A stretch of 64,000 nucleotides of DNA from IMG/VR virus record IMGVR_UViG_3300017605_000154, positions 1-64,000 of that record; one strand, 5' to 3'. Shown here one piece after another: positions 3,372-15,383 of the stretch. The notes beneath the pieces were generated by a model that ran no database searches, was not told the origin of the DNA, and saw only the letters and a program-made list of their open reading frames with translations. This DNA comes from a virus. Position 1 is the first letter of the stretch. Each line of letters starts with the position of its first letter. Position numbers and translations under genes: made by a program.

Positions 3372-3779
3372 ATGCCGTTTTACGAAATCGTGTACGAAAC
3401 TGGCAACGTGTCAGTTGCAGAGTACGCGGACGACGCCGAAGCACTTGAAGGTGCAGGGGCACATGACAAGAAGGCGCGTGAAGGTGGTCAGGCTGGGCCG
3501 CAGGGCGGGCCTGCAGAGCGCGTTGCAAAGATTTACAAGTATGCAGAGCATCCGGACAATTACAACACTGAGCAGACAGCAAGCGCGGACGTTCTTCAGA
3601 AGGAAGTGAGCGAGCTTATCAAGGCGCTCTCCGACAAGAATGGCGTCGTGTCGATTGACCAGCTAGTTGTGCAGGTTCGTAACCTCACGCATCCGATGAC
3701 TGAGAAGGAGAATCCGTTTGATTCTCAGTTCAAGATGAAGGAAGACGCAGTGCTGACTCTCGATGGGGGTGGGAAGTAA
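3372..3779 (+). CDS. Conserved actinophage-type hypothetical protein
   Basis: ATG 3372 follows an excellent GAGGAGG site. The 135-residue product begins MPFYEIVYETGNVSVAEYAD, then has a short Gly-rich stretch (GGQAGPQGGPAER) and a helical C-terminal half. The beginning resembles, from memory, small proteins encoded beside structural genes in actinobacterial phages; their function is unknown. Its stop overlaps the ATG of the following structural gene (TAATG). Confidence 0.65.
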   Translation: MPFYEIVYETGNVSVAEYADDAEALEGAGAHDKKAREGGQAGPQGGPAERVAKIYKYAEHPDNYNTEQTASADVLQKEVSELIKALSDKNGVVSIDQLVVQVRNLTHPMTEKENPFDSQFKMKEDAVLTLDGGGK

Positions 3780-4279
3780 TGGCAACCATCGTGTTCCAGC
3801 GCATGTCGCAGCTTGTGACCGATTACGTTCTCGGCGCAAGCGGTTCGATTACTCCTCCGTCGTCGTGGACGATGGGCCTCTCTACTACCGTTGTCGGTAC
3901 CGGCTCCAACATGGCACGGGGTAGCGTTTGGTCTGCAACTGTTACGGGTTCCAACGTCAATGAGATTGGTTCGACTACTGCAGCCGGTTACGCGCGGCAG
4001 ACAATTGCAAAGTCGATCAACCAGGCGGGTATTGACTGGGGAACTTCATCTTTCGACAGCACGTTCTCAACTGGTGGACAGTCCACGACTGCCGATCAGG
4101 TTACGTTTGGCGCTTTCACGGGTTCTGGCCCTTCGCCGAACGGTGCAAACTCTTGGGCGCTTACCGATGGCACGACGCTCAACGCGGGTCAGTTGTATTT
4201 TGCGGCGGATACAGCGGCTACTCGTACATTCGCAGTCGGTGACACCGAGAAGGTTACGGCAACGCTCAAGGCTGGCTAG
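3779..4279 (+). CDS. Putative minor virion protein, beta-rich
   Basis: The 166 residues are rich in Thr, Ser, Gly and Ala with alternating hydrophobic positions, as in beta-structured tail or fibre subunits. The pattern GYARQTIAKS near residue 65 and the absence of charged helices fit a family of small phage receptor-facing proteins. Position at the head of the fibre block supports a virion role. Specific function unknown. Confidence 0.55.
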   Translation: MATIVFQRMSQLVTDYVLGASGSITPPSSWTMGLSTTVVGTGSNMARGSVWSATVTGSNVNEIGSTTAAGYARQTIAKSINQAGIDWGTSSFDSTFSTGGQSTTADQVTFGAFTGSGPSPNGANSWALTDGTTLNAGQLYFAADTAATRTFAVGDTEKVTATLKAG

Positions 4280-4281
4280 TC

Positions 4282-4938
4282 ATGGCGAGCCTTACAGCAT
4301 CGCCTAGTACAGTACGTGCAGGGCAATCGGTTACGCTATTGGGCGAAGGCTTTGCTGCGTCTACGCCCATTGCAATCAGAGTGCCAGAAGTGGGCTTTGC
4401 CGCCGAGATTCCATCGAACGCCGGTGGAGTTGTTTCGAATGACGACATTGCCGATCACGCTACTGTAACTCTGACTTCTGCGGGCCAGCCTACGGCTGGT
4501 GAAACTGTCACACTTGGCTCAAAGACCTACACGTTCCGTGCATCCACGGTGCCTGCCGCCAATGATGTACTTATTGGTGGCAGTGCATCGATTACCCTGG
4601 ACAATCTCAAGGCTGCAGTAAATGGCGCTGCAGGTGCAGGGACGCTATATGGAACGGGTACGGTTGCGAATGCCGATATCGTTGCAGGACAGAAGACTGC
4701 GACCACGATCGTTTTTCATGCGAGGCTAGCAGGGCCGGAAGGTAACTCGCTCGCTTCAACTGAAACTGCAGCCACAGCATTGTCCTTTGGATCGGCAACC
4801 CTATTGGGTGGCGCTAACGATCCAACTGGAATCAAGCTGATGGATTGGAGTCCTGGTAGACCCGGTACTTATCTCGTTACCGCAACGGATGGTACAACGT
4901 CTGCGAGTGTCAACGTTCGGGTGTTCGCAGCTACCTAG
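4282..4938 (+). CDS. Ig-like surface protein interrupted by a second beta domain
   Basis: In this 218-residue protein, residues 1-50 (ASPSTVRAGQSVTLLGEGF) look like the first strands of an Ig/IPT-type domain. The last 40 (PGRPGTYLVTATDGTTSASV) look like its closing strands. Between them, about residues 60-175 match a common phage tail module, with TVTLGSKTYTF, a DNLKAAVNGAAGAGT helix and GNSLASTETA. The arrangement suggests one domain inserted into another. Such domains usually decorate capsids or tails and bind carbohydrate. Confidence 0.6.
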   Translation: MASLTASPSTVRAGQSVTLLGEGFAASTPIAIRVPEVGFAAEIPSNAGGVVSNDDIADHATVTLTSAGQPTAGETVTLGSKTYTFRASTVPAANDVLIGGSASITLDNLKAAVNGAAGAGTLYGTGTVANADIVAGQKTATTIVFHARLAGPEGNSLASTETAATALSFGSATLLGGANDPTGIKLMDWSPGRPGTYLVTATDGTTSASVNVRVFAAT

Positions 4939-8766: not shown

Positions 8767-9087
8767 ATGGCATTCACTCTAACGCGAGGTACTAAGGAGA
8801 TTCTGCCCGTCGATGTCGACGACACGACCGATCAAGCGACGTCTCTAGTAAGTGCGACTAGTGTCCAGTTCGATGTCAAGTTGGCAGACTCACCGTTTAC
8901 ATCGTTCTATTCGAATCAGGCTGCATCAGCTACAGGCATGCGCATTAGTTGCCTTGTCGATACATCGGCAGCGCATCCAAACGGGCTGTGGCCGGAAGGT
9001 CACTATGAGCTTTACGTCGAGTTCGTACTAGCAACTGAAAGCGTACGACTCGGCCCGATCGACATTTACGTAATCGGCCAAGGTTAG
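8767..9087 (+). CDS. Small beta protein paired with repeat fibre (paralogue of 15374-15667)
   Basis: This 106-residue protein begins MAFTLTRGTKEILPVDVDD and ends RLGPIDIYVIGQG. The protein at 15374-15667 begins MAVVLTKGTVEFLPIRVSD and ends RLGPYKFRVDD. Shared positions span the whole length. Both genes directly follow a D-L-Q-repeat protein, which suggests an accessory or chaperone/adaptor for the preceding fibre. The beta pattern resembles N-terminal baseplate-binding domains; this comparison is tentative. Confidence 0.65.
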   Translation: MAFTLTRGTKEILPVDVDDTTDQATSLVSATSVQFDVKLADSPFTSFYSNQAASATGMRISCLVDTSAAHPNGLWPEGHYELYVEFVLATESVRLGPIDIYVIGQG

Positions 9088-9096
9088 GAGAGAACC

Positions 9097-9654
9097 GTGG
9101 GCAAAGTTGGTTATCAGGATGGATTGAAGGCAGCATACCAGCGGATCAAGAAGCTCGATCCCGCAGGCTGCAATCCAAACTATAATCCTGACGATCCTGA
9201 TGCTATCCCTGTGGATCAGTTGAAGGCTTGGGACAAAGTTCATCGCACCCTGAAGATCCTCAAGGAAGATCACGATGCGGCAGTTCCTACCAACGGTGGC
9301 GGTAATGGTGGTGGCGGTGGTGGCGGCGGTAATCCGCCTCCCGTTAAGAGATATGCACCGCGTACTCACAATCTCGGCAATCGCGATCAAGACCCGCGCT
9401 TTTGTTGCAAGCCTGAGTATGGCGTTGTTGACAAGGGAACTCACTACGAAGACGAGATGGGTTGCACGTACACGAAGGAACCGTACGGAACGAATCCAGA
9501 TGGTAAGAGGGATCGCGCCTACATCGTGCCCGGACTAAAGGGTGCGGATTCGATGGATGGTGCAGAGCCTTGCGATCCGTACAGCGCAAATGGCATCTCG
9601 GTTCCTCCCTACCCAGGCGATCCTGTTGCACAAACAGGCTCATATCACAGATAA
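9097..9654 (+). CDS. Hypothetical protein with polyglycine linker
   Basis: A GTG start at 9097 follows AGGAGAG. The N-terminal 65 residues are helical (KAAYQRIKKLDP; AWDKVHRTLKILKEDHDA). A run of Gly and Asn at residues 67-79 links them to a Cys-containing C-terminal half (FCCKPEYG, MGCTYTKEPYG). The linker suggests two independently folding parts of a virion protein. Its last codons overlap the start of the sigma-like gene. Confidence 0.6.
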   Translation: MGKVGYQDGLKAAYQRIKKLDPAGCNPNYNPDDPDAIPVDQLKAWDKVHRTLKILKEDHDAAVPTNGGGNGGGGGGGGNPPPVKRYAPRTHNLGNRDQDPRFCCKPEYGVVDKGTHYEDEMGCTYTKEPYGTNPDGKRDRAYIVPGLKGADSMDGAEPCDPYSANGISVPPYPGDPVAQTGSYHR

Positions 9655-10168
9655 AATAAGCGACGAGGTTCTAGTTGAAACTGTCGAGTACCTATCGCGT
9701 GTTCTGTTTAGAACTCGAGGTATCCACTCTAAACTACGCGATGACATACGGCAAGAGATCGCAGTTGCACTCATAAAGGCGCGAGAGAATTTCGATCCAT
9801 CTAAAGCAAGCTGGAATACCTACGCAAATCGTATTGCATTCTACACACTGAGAGAGTATCTGCGGAGTAATTATATTGACGGGAAAGAGTATAAGAAGGG
9901 GCTACAGTCGCCAATCAACTATGTAGCTTTCGAGGAGTTAACAAGTGAGCCGTCCACTACTGAACAGTACGATAACCTTACCACTACAGAGTTGCTTGGA
10001 ATTTGCAAGACGGATAAGGAACGATTCGTAGTTCTATGTCTTATGGCGGGCTACAATTCGGCAGAGATAGAGAGAATGCTACGAATCGGGCAGGGAAGGC
10101 TTACGAAGACTATCTTGCGCTTACGGATCGCGAGCTTGAAATACTTGAGGTTACAGCAACCGGATTGA
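9626..10168 (+). CDS. Sigma-70-family-like transcription factor
   Basis: The core reads as sigma region 2, DDIRQEIAVALIKARENFDP with TYANRIAFYTLREYLRS. A region 4-like HTH follows: TDKERFVVLCLMAG, then YNSAEIERMLRIGQGRLT and KTILRLR. That is the two-domain layout of small (ECF-like) sigma factors or of phage sigma-like late regulators. The start is uncertain. I place it at TTG 9626 with AGG nine bases upstream, because the frame's first ATG (9542) would add residues read from the gene upstream. It would direct RNA polymerase to phage promoters, perhaps late ones. It sits unexpectedly inside the fibre block, and its 3' end overlaps the next gene by 133 bases. Confidence 0.6.
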   Translation: MHKQAHITDKISDEVLVETVEYLSRVLFRTRGIHSKLRDDIRQEIAVALIKARENFDPSKASWNTYANRIAFYTLREYLRSNYIDGKEYKKGLQSPINYVAFEELTSEPSTTEQYDNLTTTELLGICKTDKERFVVLCLMAGYNSAEIERMLRIGQGRLTKTILRLRIASLKYLRLQQPD

Positions 10169-10305
10169 CTAGTGAGGAAACAGCAAAAGAGTTGTTCATA
10201 GCTTTCCAGACTGTAAAGACCTATAAGAAGAGGATTATTCTAAAATTGGACGCGAAGAACATGGTTCACGCAGTAGCTAAAGCTATCAGGCAAGGACTGA
10301 TCTAG
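10036..10305 (+). CDS. LuxR/GerE-type helix-turn-helix protein overlapping the sigma-like gene
   Basis: Residues 29-89 are a nearly complete GerE-type HTH: LTDRELEILEVTATGLTSEE at the start, the recognition segment FIAFQTVKTYKKRI, then the closing helix AVAKAIRQGLI. There is no receiver or ligand-binding domain. ATG 10036 lies within the sigma-like frame, shifted by -1, and the spacing to AAGGAA is long. The HTH itself lies mostly beyond the sigma stop. Either this is a small separate DNA-binding protein, or it is joined to the sigma-like product by a ribosomal frameshift. I favour a separate, coupled gene. Confidence 0.6.
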   Translation: MSYGGLQFGRDRENATNRAGKAYEDYLALTDRELEILEVTATGLTSEETAKELFIAFQTVKTYKKRIILKLDAKNMVHAVAKAIRQGLI

Positions 10306-10340: not shown

Positions 10341-10820
10341 ATGAGGGCCGAGTACGAAGCACATACATCAGCAGCAGTAGCCCTTGCCGCTGCGACTACC
10401 GCAAAAACGATTTTCGGAATTAAGGGCGATACAGGATACGCACTCGATCTTCTCAAGTGGTGGTTTACTCTAGATGGAGTATCGGCATCTGAGAAGCCTA
10501 TCTACATTGAACTGTGTTATTGCACGTGGGCAACAAACGCTCCTGGTACAGCCTCAACGTCGGAAACACCGAATCAGGTTGCTGGCCCTAGAATTGCGGA
10601 AACGTTTGCTGCCGGTCGTAACTGGACTTCTGAGCCTACTGTGCTTACGCCGATCGAAGTGTTCGACTACGATCCTTATAAGGCGTACTACGGTTACGAC
10701 TTCTCGCTTGGTGATTCGCCTGACTCAGCGAATGCGGAAGGTTTTGCTGTTCGTATGACTATTCCATCGGGCGGTGCTGCTGTTAACGCTCGTACAGGAA
10801 TGCGAGTTGCGAGAGCTTAA
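10341..10820 (+). CDS. Minor virion protein, beta-rich (actinophage structural family)
   Basis: The 159 residues start after AAGGGATA. The pattern AAATTAKTIFGIKGDTGYAL, an IYIELCYCTWATN strand, NQVAGPRIAETFAAGRNWTSEP and a closing GFAVRMTIPSGGAAVNAR matches, from memory, a small structural protein found in many phages of Gram-positive hosts. It probably contributes to a fibre or capsid decoration. Its stop overlaps the ATG of the next gene. Confidence 0.55.
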   Translation: MRAEYEAHTSAAVALAAATTAKTIFGIKGDTGYALDLLKWWFTLDGVSASEKPIYIELCYCTWATNAPGTASTSETPNQVAGPRIAETFAAGRNWTSEPTVLTPIEVFDYDPYKAYYGYDFSLGDSPDSANAEGFAVRMTIPSGGAAVNARTGMRVARA

Positions 10821-11137: not shown

Positions 11138-13008
11138 GTCTACGATTCCTAGATGGATTTGAGCATGGCGTACTTTCAAGTGCTGGCGGCGGTCTTTACA
11201 GTAACATCGCTAACTTCTCAACGGTTGCAGACATAGTAACTTCTCCAGTTAAGACTGGTAATCGCTGCCTTCGCTTGAGAAATTCCAGTCGTATTAGTTA
11301 TGACTTTGGGAACTCTCCTGCAATAGCAATGATTGGTGCTTGGGTTCGTTTTGAAGCATTACCAGCAAGCGGCCCCCTTGACATATTTGGTATTGAATCA
11401 TCTGGATCACCGGGCGCCTGGGTCAATCTCAATACAGACGGTACAGTTACACAGGCCGCTTATGATGGTGCGGTTGCGATTGAAGATAGTCCTAACAGCT
11501 CCGGGACACTCGTGATTGGAAGGTTCCATTGGATCGCCTTCTATGCTGATATGTCAAGTAATCCCTGGGTTGTTCGCACAAAGATAGATCAAAATGCTGT
11601 ACGTGAATATCAGCCAGCAATAGCGGGCACAGTAATCGCTAGAGCAAATATTTGGCACAACAATTTTGTAGAGGCGGGCGACCTTACTCGTTATTATGAT
11701 GACGCTGTAATTTATGCTGGAAGCACATCTGACTGGCCTATTACTCCCAAGCGTATTTATCCTAAGGCTCTTAATGCTGTCGGTACTCATAACCTGGAAG
11801 CTGCAACTTCAAAGTTTTACTTTAAGGATATCGCGGGTACGGAAACCGCACTTACTACCTCCGAAACGACTAGTCATCAGGTTATTGATGATTCACCTCT
11901 AGACCAGGACGTAGACCACGTTCTTTTAAAGGGCGTAACAATCCAGTTCGGTACAAGTGTAGAATCACACACTGGTACAACCGGCTCTGTTAGTCAGGCA
12001 TCATTTGATATTTCGATTGCTCTGAACGCACGTTGTCGTGGAGTTCTAGTCTTTACGTTTGATGCGAATGCAAACGCAAACGATGCAACTAGCGTTAAGA
12101 TCAATCCAGCAGGTGCCAATATTGATGTTCCAGCCGTTGCGTCAAGCTTGGCAACAGATACAGCAATTGAGCCGGGTTCATGTCGAGCTTGGTTCATCGG
12201 TACAGGTTTAGCTAGCGTTGTTGGAACAACCGTTACCGTTCGCGTGAATCGAAATAACAACGCGAACACTATGTATGCAGTTGCTATTGCGATTAATGCG
12301 GACACTGATCTTGAAACAACTGGTGTAGCTGTGCAGAACGACGACGGCGCAATTGCCGAATTGTCGGTCAATGACGGTTCGCCAGGACAGAACTCTATGC
12401 GATTTGCAGGAGCCTATTACGGTGGAGCTGCTCCGCCTACGGCTGGTGCAAACTCAACGCTCTTGCAGAGTATCGACTTGGGTGCATTCGGTATTGCTGT
12501 TTCGCGTGAAACAACAGCCGGTCAGGGCGCACGAAATGTTGGACTAGTCGGAGCATCAGATGACCGTGCTTATACAGTATTGGCTGTTCGTGGTGTAACT
12601 CCGCAAGCTACTGCATCTCACTACGCAGAATATGCACTTGAGGATACTACTGACATATTTGAAGCAAAAGCTATACGTATTATTTCAGCAATGAGACAAG
12701 ACACCGCCGCTGCTTGCACTATTGATCTAAACGTCTTTGACGGTACTACCGGAAATGATATTGAAAATGATCTAAACATCAATAGTGCTTCCAATATTTA
12801 TCGAGTGACTGTTTTGACTACTAATCCTTCTGGTGGCTTATGGCTTAACACTATCTTCAATGCTCTAAAACTTAGATGGGGTAAATCAATTAGTGCGGCG
12901 GGGATTCCCCGTCTAGCAGCTTTGCAAGCTGAGATACTGCTCGATGATGTTAAGCATACACCTATTTATAATCGCCAAGATTCACAACACAGGGCGAGTC
13001 GCTGGTAA
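11134..13008 (+). CDS. Tail fibre/appendage protein with N-terminal LamG/ConA-like domain
   Basis: This 624-residue protein starts at the ATG of the ATGA overlap, giving MSLRFLDGFEHGVLSSAGG. Residues 1-210 have the strand order of a laminin-G/concanavalin-like jelly roll, with FHWIAFYADMSSNPWVVRTK and YYDDAVIYAG. Such domains bind glycans. The centre (residues 250-480) is a second beta domain with repeated Ala/Asn/Thr strands. The C-terminal part ends with a helix (IPRLAALQAEILLDD). Likely part of the host-binding apparatus. It is coupled to the next gene by TAATG. Confidence 0.65.
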   Translation: MSLRFLDGFEHGVLSSAGGGLYSNIANFSTVADIVTSPVKTGNRCLRLRNSSRISYDFGNSPAIAMIGAWVRFEALPASGPLDIFGIESSGSPGAWVNLNTDGTVTQAAYDGAVAIEDSPNSSGTLVIGRFHWIAFYADMSSNPWVVRTKIDQNAVREYQPAIAGTVIARANIWHNNFVEAGDLTRYYDDAVIYAGSTSDWPITPKRIYPKALNAVGTHNLEAATSKFYFKDIAGTETALTTSETTSHQVIDDSPLDQDVDHVLLKGVTIQFGTSVESHTGTTGSVSQASFDISIALNARCRGVLVFTFDANANANDATSVKINPAGANIDVPAVASSLATDTAIEPGSCRAWFIGTGLASVVGTTVTVRVNRNNNANTMYAVAIAINADTDLETTGVAVQNDDGAIAELSVNDGSPGQNSMRFAGAYYGGAAPPTAGANSTLLQSIDLGAFGIAVSRETTAGQGARNVGLVGASDDRAYTVLAVRGVTPQATASHYAEYALEDTTDIFEAKAIRIISAMRQDTAAACTIDLNVFDGTTGNDIENDLNINSASNIYRVTVLTTNPSGGLWLNTIFNALKLRWGKSISAAGIPRLAALQAEILLDDVKHTPIYNRQDSQHRASRW

Positions 13009-15383
13009 TGGCTAGATATAAGCGAGCCGATCGTTTTTCTCCGACGCTTACGCATCGTGCGCTAGTTCCTACTGGCGCTACCGGAGCATATACCGACGCC
13101 GCGACAGTATATCTCGATATCCAGGCTAGCAGTAGCGATACCGCACAGTTCGTAGACGGTGGAGTTGCTGGTGTTACCGCTTCCGACAATTTTAATCGCG
13201 CTAATGAAACTCCTATCGGATCGCCCTGGGTACGATTGACAGGTAGCACAGGACTAGCAGACCTAGATTCAAACCATGTAACAGTCCTTACTGCACAGCA
13301 AGGTGATAAGCTCTACTATCACAGTAGTCTAGCAGGTGTAGTGGGTGCAACACAATTTTCGGAATGTGTCGTAGGACAGGTTACGACAGATGGTGGCCCT
13401 GCTGTAAGAATCGGCGGCGGAACTGGATTTAGTGCTTACATTTTCAACGTAGTAACGTTTGCTATTTGCGCTTTCAACAATGGCGCGTTCGTAATAATCG
13501 GATCAGACCTTTCGGCGTTTGTGTTTACTGATTCAGTCATTCGTTTGGAAGCTGAAGGTAACACAGTTCGAGTATATATTGACGGTATCCTACGTGATAC
13601 TAGATCAGATACACTAGTACCTAATGCTGGCAATGGTCCAGGCTGGCATCTCTATGATTCTGCCGGATCAGCAACAAAGAATATTGATAACTGGTCGGGC
13701 GGAGATATCGGTGTCGCCGCTTATGTCTATCTCGATCTTCAACCATCCGCTACTGAAACAAAAGAAATTCCCGATACCGCGACTGTCTACGTCGACATTC
13801 AAGCAATTACGACAGTTGAGACAGCGCAGTTTGTCGACAGTAACACTGCATACGTTGATTTGCAGGCGAGTGGCACCGAGGCGCGAGAAATCGCCGACAC
13901 TGCAACGGTGTATATTGACCTGCAGGCGTCCGACACTCAGATATTCGAAGGAGTCGATAGTGGCAACGTTCCCCTACTATTCACGGTATCCGCAGTCGAA
14001 CTACGCGACCGATTCGACAGCGACAACATCTACTTGGATCTCTCTGTCCAATACGTCGAATTGGCCGAGTTGGCCGACGCAGCCACCGTATACGTGGACG
14101 TCCAAAGCAGCAGCACAGATATCGCTCAGTTCGTTGACGCGCAGACAGTTGGACTCGTTCTGGCTCCGTCGAGCGCGGACACAATTCAAGCAGTCGATGC
14201 TGACTCGGTATATTTCGACCTTCAGGCATCTGGTACCGAATTCGTTGAGCGTGCAACTCTCGACGCGGATACGGTGTACCTCGATATCTCAACCACATCG
14301 ACGCAAGTCTTTGAAGGCGTTGATGCGCAAACCGTCTATGCTCTACTAACGCCTAGTGCGACTGACGTAGCTGACTTTGCGGAAGCAGCTTCAGTCTACC
14401 TCGATATTCAAACAAGCGATACCCAGGCTTTTGCAGGCATCGATGCGGCAACCGGAAATCTCGTTATCACCATTACGAGTTCCGACATCATCATTGCCGT
14501 CGATACTGACTCGGTATATTTCGATCTGCAGGCATCGGGGAACGAATCCCAATCCGGCGCAACTAATGATGCGGACACGATCCTGGTCGATCTGCAGACT
14601 TCTGATACTCAGGTCTTCGAGGGCGTAGATGCTAACTCTGTGCTGGTCGATCTGCAGGTTGCGTCCACGGAGGAGTCTGCCACTGTTGACGCAACTACAG
14701 CTTTCGTAGCTATTACGCCGAGCGCAGCGGATACAGCGCAGTATGTAGAAGCCACTAGCGTTTACCTCGACCTGGATGCTTCCGGAACGGACGTCAAAGA
14801 AGGACTGCAGACCGACGCAGCTACGGTACTTGCCGATCTTCAACCATCAGGAACGGATAGCGCCGATTACGTCGAAAGCGCCAGCGTCTACATCGACCTG
14901 CAAGCTTCCGGTGTAGATCAGTATATTGCGCCGACGCAAGATTCTGATACAGCATATCTGGATTTGCAGGTAACGCAATCCGACATCGCTGCTACTAACG
15001 ACGCAGCTACAGCGTACTTCGACATTAATGTCATTCAGCAGGACATCGCGATCTTCCTGGATGCTGCAACGGCTGTGGTGGGGTTGCAGCCGACAAGCAG
15101 CGAACTGCGTGAAATTTTCGAGTCTGCACAAGCATATCTTGATTTGCAAGTCGCTGCGATCGAGGTACCAGCATACATCGAAACGTTCACTGTTCCCCTG
15201 TACATATTTCCGACCTCGACGGAGTACAGAGAGGTTACGGATGCAGGCTCGGTTTACCTTGATATCAACATATCAGGTCAGCCGATTCTGCTTGCTGTAC
15301 TATCCGGGAAATTGCTTGGCCGCGTATGGGCAGCGAACTTCGGTAACAAGTGGAGAGGGCAGGTGATTAACCGATGGCAGTAG
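13008..15383 (+). CDS. Fibre protein with about 27 tandem 20-residue D-L-Q repeats
   Basis: In this 791-residue protein, one repeat (residues about 24-44) is followed by a ConA/LamG-like domain (about 60-235, beginning DNFNRANETPIGSPW). Some 26 further repeats of about 20 residues then run to the end, with consensus D-(A/S)-x-(T/S)-V-Y-(L/V/F)-D-(L/I)-Q-x-S-x-T-x-x-x-x-x-V. The unit is highly regular and devoid of Cys. It looks like a rigid beta-structured shaft carrying a glycan-binding head. The last 35 residues are basic and Trp-containing. The same repeat closes the protein at 4997-8752. Repeats of this kind can change copy number by recombination. Confidence 0.7.
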   Translation: MARYKRADRFSPTLTHRALVPTGATGAYTDAATVYLDIQASSSDTAQFVDGGVAGVTASDNFNRANETPIGSPWVRLTGSTGLADLDSNHVTVLTAQQGDKLYYHSSLAGVVGATQFSECVVGQVTTDGGPAVRIGGGTGFSAYIFNVVTFAICAFNNGAFVIIGSDLSAFVFTDSVIRLEAEGNTVRVYIDGILRDTRSDTLVPNAGNGPGWHLYDSAGSATKNIDNWSGGDIGVAAYVYLDLQPSATETKEIPDTATVYVDIQAITTVETAQFVDSNTAYVDLQASGTEAREIADTATVYIDLQASDTQIFEGVDSGNVPLLFTVSAVELRDRFDSDNIYLDLSVQYVELAELADAATVYVDVQSSSTDIAQFVDAQTVGLVLAPSSADTIQAVDADSVYFDLQASGTEFVERATLDADTVYLDISTTSTQVFEGVDAQTVYALLTPSATDVADFAEAASVYLDIQTSDTQAFAGIDAATGNLVITITSSDIIIAVDTDSVYFDLQASGNESQSGATNDADTILVDLQTSDTQVFEGVDANSVLVDLQVASTEESATVDATTAFVAITPSAADTAQYVEATSVYLDLDASGTDVKEGLQTDAATVLADLQPSGTDSADYVESASVYIDLQASGVDQYIAPTQDSDTAYLDLQVTQSDIAATNDAATAYFDINVIQQDIAIFLDAATAVVGLQPTSSELREIFESAQAYLDLQVAAIEVPAYIETFTVPLYIFPTSTEYREVTDAGSVYLDINISGQPILLAVLSGKLLGRVWAANFGNKWRGQVINRWQ

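Follow-up and report, generated by a model that had tools for sequence, protein, structure and literature searches.

A predicted ECF-like sigma factor gene and a GerE-family gene overlap out of frame in uncultured soil phages

When a sigma-like gene runs into a LuxR-type helix-turn-helix (HTH) gene in a different frame, does the locus encode one protein or two, and could the products act together? An earlier note on a 64,000-nucleotide stretch of viral DNA (hereafter the window), which belongs to a 77,257-base virus contig in IMG/VR, had described such a locus and proposed either a dedicated late-transcription switch or a −1 frameshift joining the two reading frames. Our analysis favors, with a probability of roughly two in three, a compact regulatory pair encoded as distinct proteins: a phage sigma factor of ECF-like type that has just regions 2 and 4, and a DNA-binding protein that is a bare GerE domain. 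To judge from the sequences, this pair is probably a phage transcription module.

Two regulator genes in one stretch of DNA

The locus has the following features.

9097..9654, + strand: upstream structural-region gene, whose 3' end overlaps the start of the sigma gene by 29 nt
9626..10168, + strand: predicted ECF-like sigma factor gene, 180 aa, TTG start (from Pfam, AlphaFold, Foldseek and homologues); region 2 at residues 13–84, disordered linker at residues 85–118, region-4-like HTH at residues 120–177
10036..10305, + strand: GerE/LuxR-type HTH gene, 89 aa, ATG start (from Pfam, AlphaFold and homologues); GerE domain at residues 28–89, residues 1–27 of low confidence
10036..10168, + strand: sigma/GerE overlap, 133 bases in common, the GerE frame being −1 relative to sigma
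10118..10129, + strand: register point, where the codons CGC TTA CGG ATC of the sigma "RLRI" also encode the GerE "LT" motif

By its predicted domains, the product of the first regulator gene is a member of the sigma-70 (ECF-like) family, its region 4 being recognized more by structure prediction than by profile. Sigma70_r2 (PF04542) matches the protein with 28.7 bits (E 1.1e-6; Pfam cut-off 24), and TIGR02937 aligns with residues 38–167 at 34.2 bits (E 1.8e-8), which is below its cut-off of 42.9. The Pfam search returned no separate region 4 match in the window protein. The AlphaFold (AF2) model, for which four sequences were used as input, consists of two helical domains with pLDDT values mostly of 76–90 inside the domains. 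Three helices make up region 2, and a C-terminal domain of four helices (residues 120–126, 130–140, 145–152, and 156–177) follows the low-confidence linker. When the model was compared with the PDB using Foldseek, the top matches were nearly all sigma factors, with ECF factors first (best E 6.3e-4); the flexible linker makes for a loose overall superposition. Matches in a viral structure library are largely phage sigma factors, and the protein matches the sigma PHROGs 1740 and 351. The window protein thus has both a region 2 above the Pfam cut-off and a predicted two-domain sigma fold.

As for the second gene, its sequence places the product in the GerE family, as a bare HTH domain without a sensor. 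GerE (PF00196) matches with 58.6 bits (E 4.7e-16; cut-off 23.5), and the AF2 model has pLDDT values of 94–98 from residue 31 onward and of about 50–60 before it. No autoinducer-binding or receiver domain is found at the N terminus, GerE being the sole Pfam domain and residues 1–27 not being confidently folded. The earlier note's account of a two-region sigma and a bare GerE HTH sharing 133 bases out of frame therefore holds in its coordinates, frames, Pfam domains, and predicted folds. So does its placing of the pair in the fibre block, since the pair adjoins tail-fibre-like genes and lies upstream of the genes for terminase (15561), portal (17023), and major head (20408). The terminase large subunit, portal, protease, major head, and tape-measure genes all follow downstream, with replication genes on the other strand. 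In one of the fibre-like proteins (13008–15383), a motif like "AxTVYLDLQASGTE" is repeated many times over.

Conservation of the overlap in other phages

The window sigma protein is hard to trace by its own sequence. As sole query, it found no match at E 0.01 by tblastn against 50,697 phage records and no match in IMG/VR or in 84,980 genomes. Relatives were gathered via the major-head gene and the conserved gene at 3779–4279, which define a group of uncultured soil siphoviruses; relatives of the gene at 10341 brought neither sigma nor GerE. Within the group, sigma homologues that are 34–35% identical occur in the phages that we label L072 and L080/L081, and in each a homologue of GerE overlaps the sigma gene. 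L080 and L081 are contigs from different IMG datasets that are identical at the locus. A sigma profile built from three sequences brought no additional members from viral contigs and none at all from genome contigs. Sigma70_r2 scores 30.4 bits in the L072 homologue and 42.5 bits in that of L080. The overlap with GerE measures about 199 nt in L072 and about 202 nt in L080, and its register is common to the window, L072, and L080: the GerE "LT" codons start within the sigma "RLR" codons. The sigma gene also overlaps the preceding gene in each case. Read from the sequence, this second overlap is about 29 nt from the TTG start in the window, of equal length from the ATG start in L072, and 44 nt in L080. 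The comparison with relatives that the earlier note had called for thus finds both frames kept, at the same register, and shows that the sigma/GerE overlap is a real, conserved gene pair, beyond chance.

The arrangement recurs in L105, a distant phage outside the group that also encodes thymidine kinase. Its sigma gene (3426–4133) scores above the Pfam region-2 cut-off, and the L105 and L080 sigma proteins both have weak region-4/HTH matches. The L105 GerE gene starts within sigma, at an ATG (3959) preceded by a good Shine-Dalgarno (SD) site, and overlaps it by 175 nt. The frame is again −1, as in all four phages, with the register about nine residues further on. The pair as a whole (3426–4189) has a tail gene on one side and a terminase-small-subunit match on the other. 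The differing register suggests that the overlap originated repeatedly or has drifted.

These phages also bear on whether there is a functional module at all. GerE could instead be a variable cargo gene, with sigma inserted between it and the upstream gene and the overlap reflecting compaction without shared regulation. GerE genes do occur without sigma in many relatives, where each has a start of its own, in many cases a weak one. GerE comes immediately after a gene similar to 9097–9654 in L070 and L078, where the sigma gene is missing from between the two, and some relatives have neither sigma nor GerE. The placement of lone GerE genes varies as well. In L039, GerE (2217–2567) lies before the homologue of the 3779 gene, between it and the homologue of the 3372 gene; in L041 (506–835), a bare GerE gene comes directly before terminase; and in L042 (7994–8353), it is in the early block on the other strand. 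Moreover, most relatives are without a sigma gene, and therefore sigma is accessory rather than essential, and not the core late switch of the group. The cargo reading is nevertheless unlikely. No sigma without GerE was seen within the group, whose three distinct sigmas, about 35% identical, all carry the GerE overlap in one register, and the overlap is seen again in L105. Bare GerE matches also occur in annotated phages (two of Rhizobium, two of Vibrio, and Pseudomonas phage Komp_PAO1_1). None of these has a sigma gene annotated beside GerE, and in the two Rhizobium phages GerE overlaps its neighbors by just 4 nt. The GerE domain tree is too short to resolve a clade of GerE from sigma-bearing phages.

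One protein or two

Programmed −1 frameshifting would join sigma to GerE in one of two ways: late, giving sigma regions 2–4 plus GerE with the join between RL and T, or early, giving a swapped sigma in which region 2 is followed by GerE in place of region 4. Such a fusion, which we consider doubtful, would agree with the −1 frame of GerE in 4/4 cases, with L072, which is without a good independent GerE start, and with the position of the RL/T join, which would keep both domains nearly whole and falls right where sigma-frame codon usage drops, being poor after RLR. However, no slippery heptamer (X XXY YYZ) in the sigma zero frame is present in the open stretch of the window, L072, L080, or L105 (0/4), and pseudoknot-free folding of the RNA at 10090–10230 gave a z of −0.72, no better than shuffles. 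Furthermore, the L105 GerE has its ATG and good SD site, and relatives have stand-alone GerE genes.

The GerE frame is itself open far upstream of the RL/T join, more so than expected. Upstream of the domain, it is open for 35, 49, 104, and 28 codons in the window, L072, L080, and L105, respectively. Upon synonymous reshuffling of sigma, the P values for open stretches of this kind are 0.14, 0.048, 0.004, and 0.19 (same order), and an empirical control on the −1 frames of other genes gave 0.13, 0.094, 0/2,021 positions, and 0.32. Codon usage in the 27-codon N-terminal stretch of the window GerE is gene-like, within the top 3.6% of open −1 frames. In the sigma tail within the overlap, similarity between phages exceeds what GerE coding explains (P 0.02), while conservation of the GerE N-terminal peptide, whose start position varies between phages, is marginal (P 0.06). 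These open-frame, codon, and conservation tests are modest singly and agree with two products. The frameshift fusion of the earlier note thus finds little in its favor here: there is neither heptamer nor unusual RNA fold, the GerE frame is coding-like from its ATG, and the sigma frame is still weakly conserved past the point where a fusion would exit it.

The weak spot of the two-protein reading is the start in L072, where the sole upstream start for GerE is a TTG (15331) with no SD site. In the window, the SD site of the GerE ATG (10036) is weak and distant (−5.1 kcal/mol). Weak SD sites are usual for GerE genes in these phages, and they are as expected for coupled translation.

Two other readings fare worse. 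In a switchable sigma factor, a shift before the region-4 HTH would let GerE replace region 4, giving two promoter specificities per gene in an arrangement that would have arisen in at least two phage lineages; we think this very improbable. Finally, the window is a single metagenomic contig, but an assembly or sequencing error that split one fused gene, which the earlier note had named as a possible undoing of its finding, has a negligible chance of explaining the locus, because the overlap keeps its −1 frame and its register in the divergent L072 and L080/L081, the latter two from different datasets, and the −1 relation repeats in L105.

A candidate transcription module and its precedents

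How might two separate proteins work as a pair? The start codon of GerE falls within sigma, and so ribosomes probably translate the two genes in a coupled manner, which would keep the products in step. The sigma factor would direct the host's core RNA polymerase to phage promoters; GerE would act as an activator or co-factor bound beside them, or tune the same promoters. Our results establish the two domains and the overlap, kept in register in three divergent genomes and seen again in a fourth, whereas we infer expression of both proteins, their coupling, their promoter targets, and any physical interaction between them. We likewise infer a role in late transcription; that the pair is a dedicated late switch, as the earlier note proposed, is possible. 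Counts of k-mers and of two-box patterns ahead of the phage genes turned up no promoter motif in common, apart from SD-like words. A single strong sigma-70-like host-type promoter (1284–1311, TTGACA-17-TATAAG; chance expectation 0.07) lies upstream of the structural block, and the pair itself may therefore be expressed from a host promoter.

Each partner has well-known counterparts. The window sigma shares region 2 and a predicted two-domain fold with ECF sigma factors (Escherichia coli SigE, Mycobacterium tuberculosis SigL/SigH, and phage PHROGs 1740 and 351), which are also its best structural matches. In contrast to these, it is very divergent, its 3' end is dual-coded with a second regulator, and no anti-sigma gene is recognized in the phage. 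The GerE protein resembles other bare GerE proteins (Bacillus subtilis GerE, cyanobacterial PedR, and PHROG 3282) in having a single domain of about 60 residues and no sensor, but it is encoded within the structural region and starts inside a sigma gene.

As a pair, they would work like known bipartite systems, an analogy by which we do not claim membership. In the split sigma factor SigO-RsoA of B. subtilis, regions 4 and 2 are divided between two proteins (PMC8103513). The possible likeness is that of two small proteins co-acting on promoters, whereas the phage sigma holds both regions and its partner is a GerE. Late transcription in phage T4, by the gp55 sigma with the gp33 co-activator and gp45 (PMC2988020), offers a functional analogy only, namely a small phage sigma that works with a small phage-encoded co-factor on the host's core polymerase. 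The partner here is a DNA-binding HTH. The LuxR proteins of the Aeromonas phages ARM81ld and Apop are quorum-sensing receptors with an XRE partner (PMC10432266). They too are phage-encoded LuxR-family HTH proteins with a partner DNA-binding protein, but the window GerE is without a sensor domain and its neighbor is a sigma factor.

That sigma and GerE families each occur in phages is known. In the open-access literature, however, we found no published description of an overlapping sigma/GerE pair, dual-coded in one stretch and retained across divergent genomes. If both proteins act together, uncultured soil phages would have in this pair a compact transcription system of their own, and one well suited to testing how overlapping regulator genes hold each other in register.

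Two other genes in this part of the window are placed differently in relatives. The gene at 4282–4938 is in the fibre block, and its homologue in L012, L013, L014, L015, and L046 is found between the homologues of the 23545 and 24377 genes, just before the tape-measure gene. The gene at 8767–9087 lies 6.5 kb upstream of terminase, and its homologue abuts terminase in many relatives.
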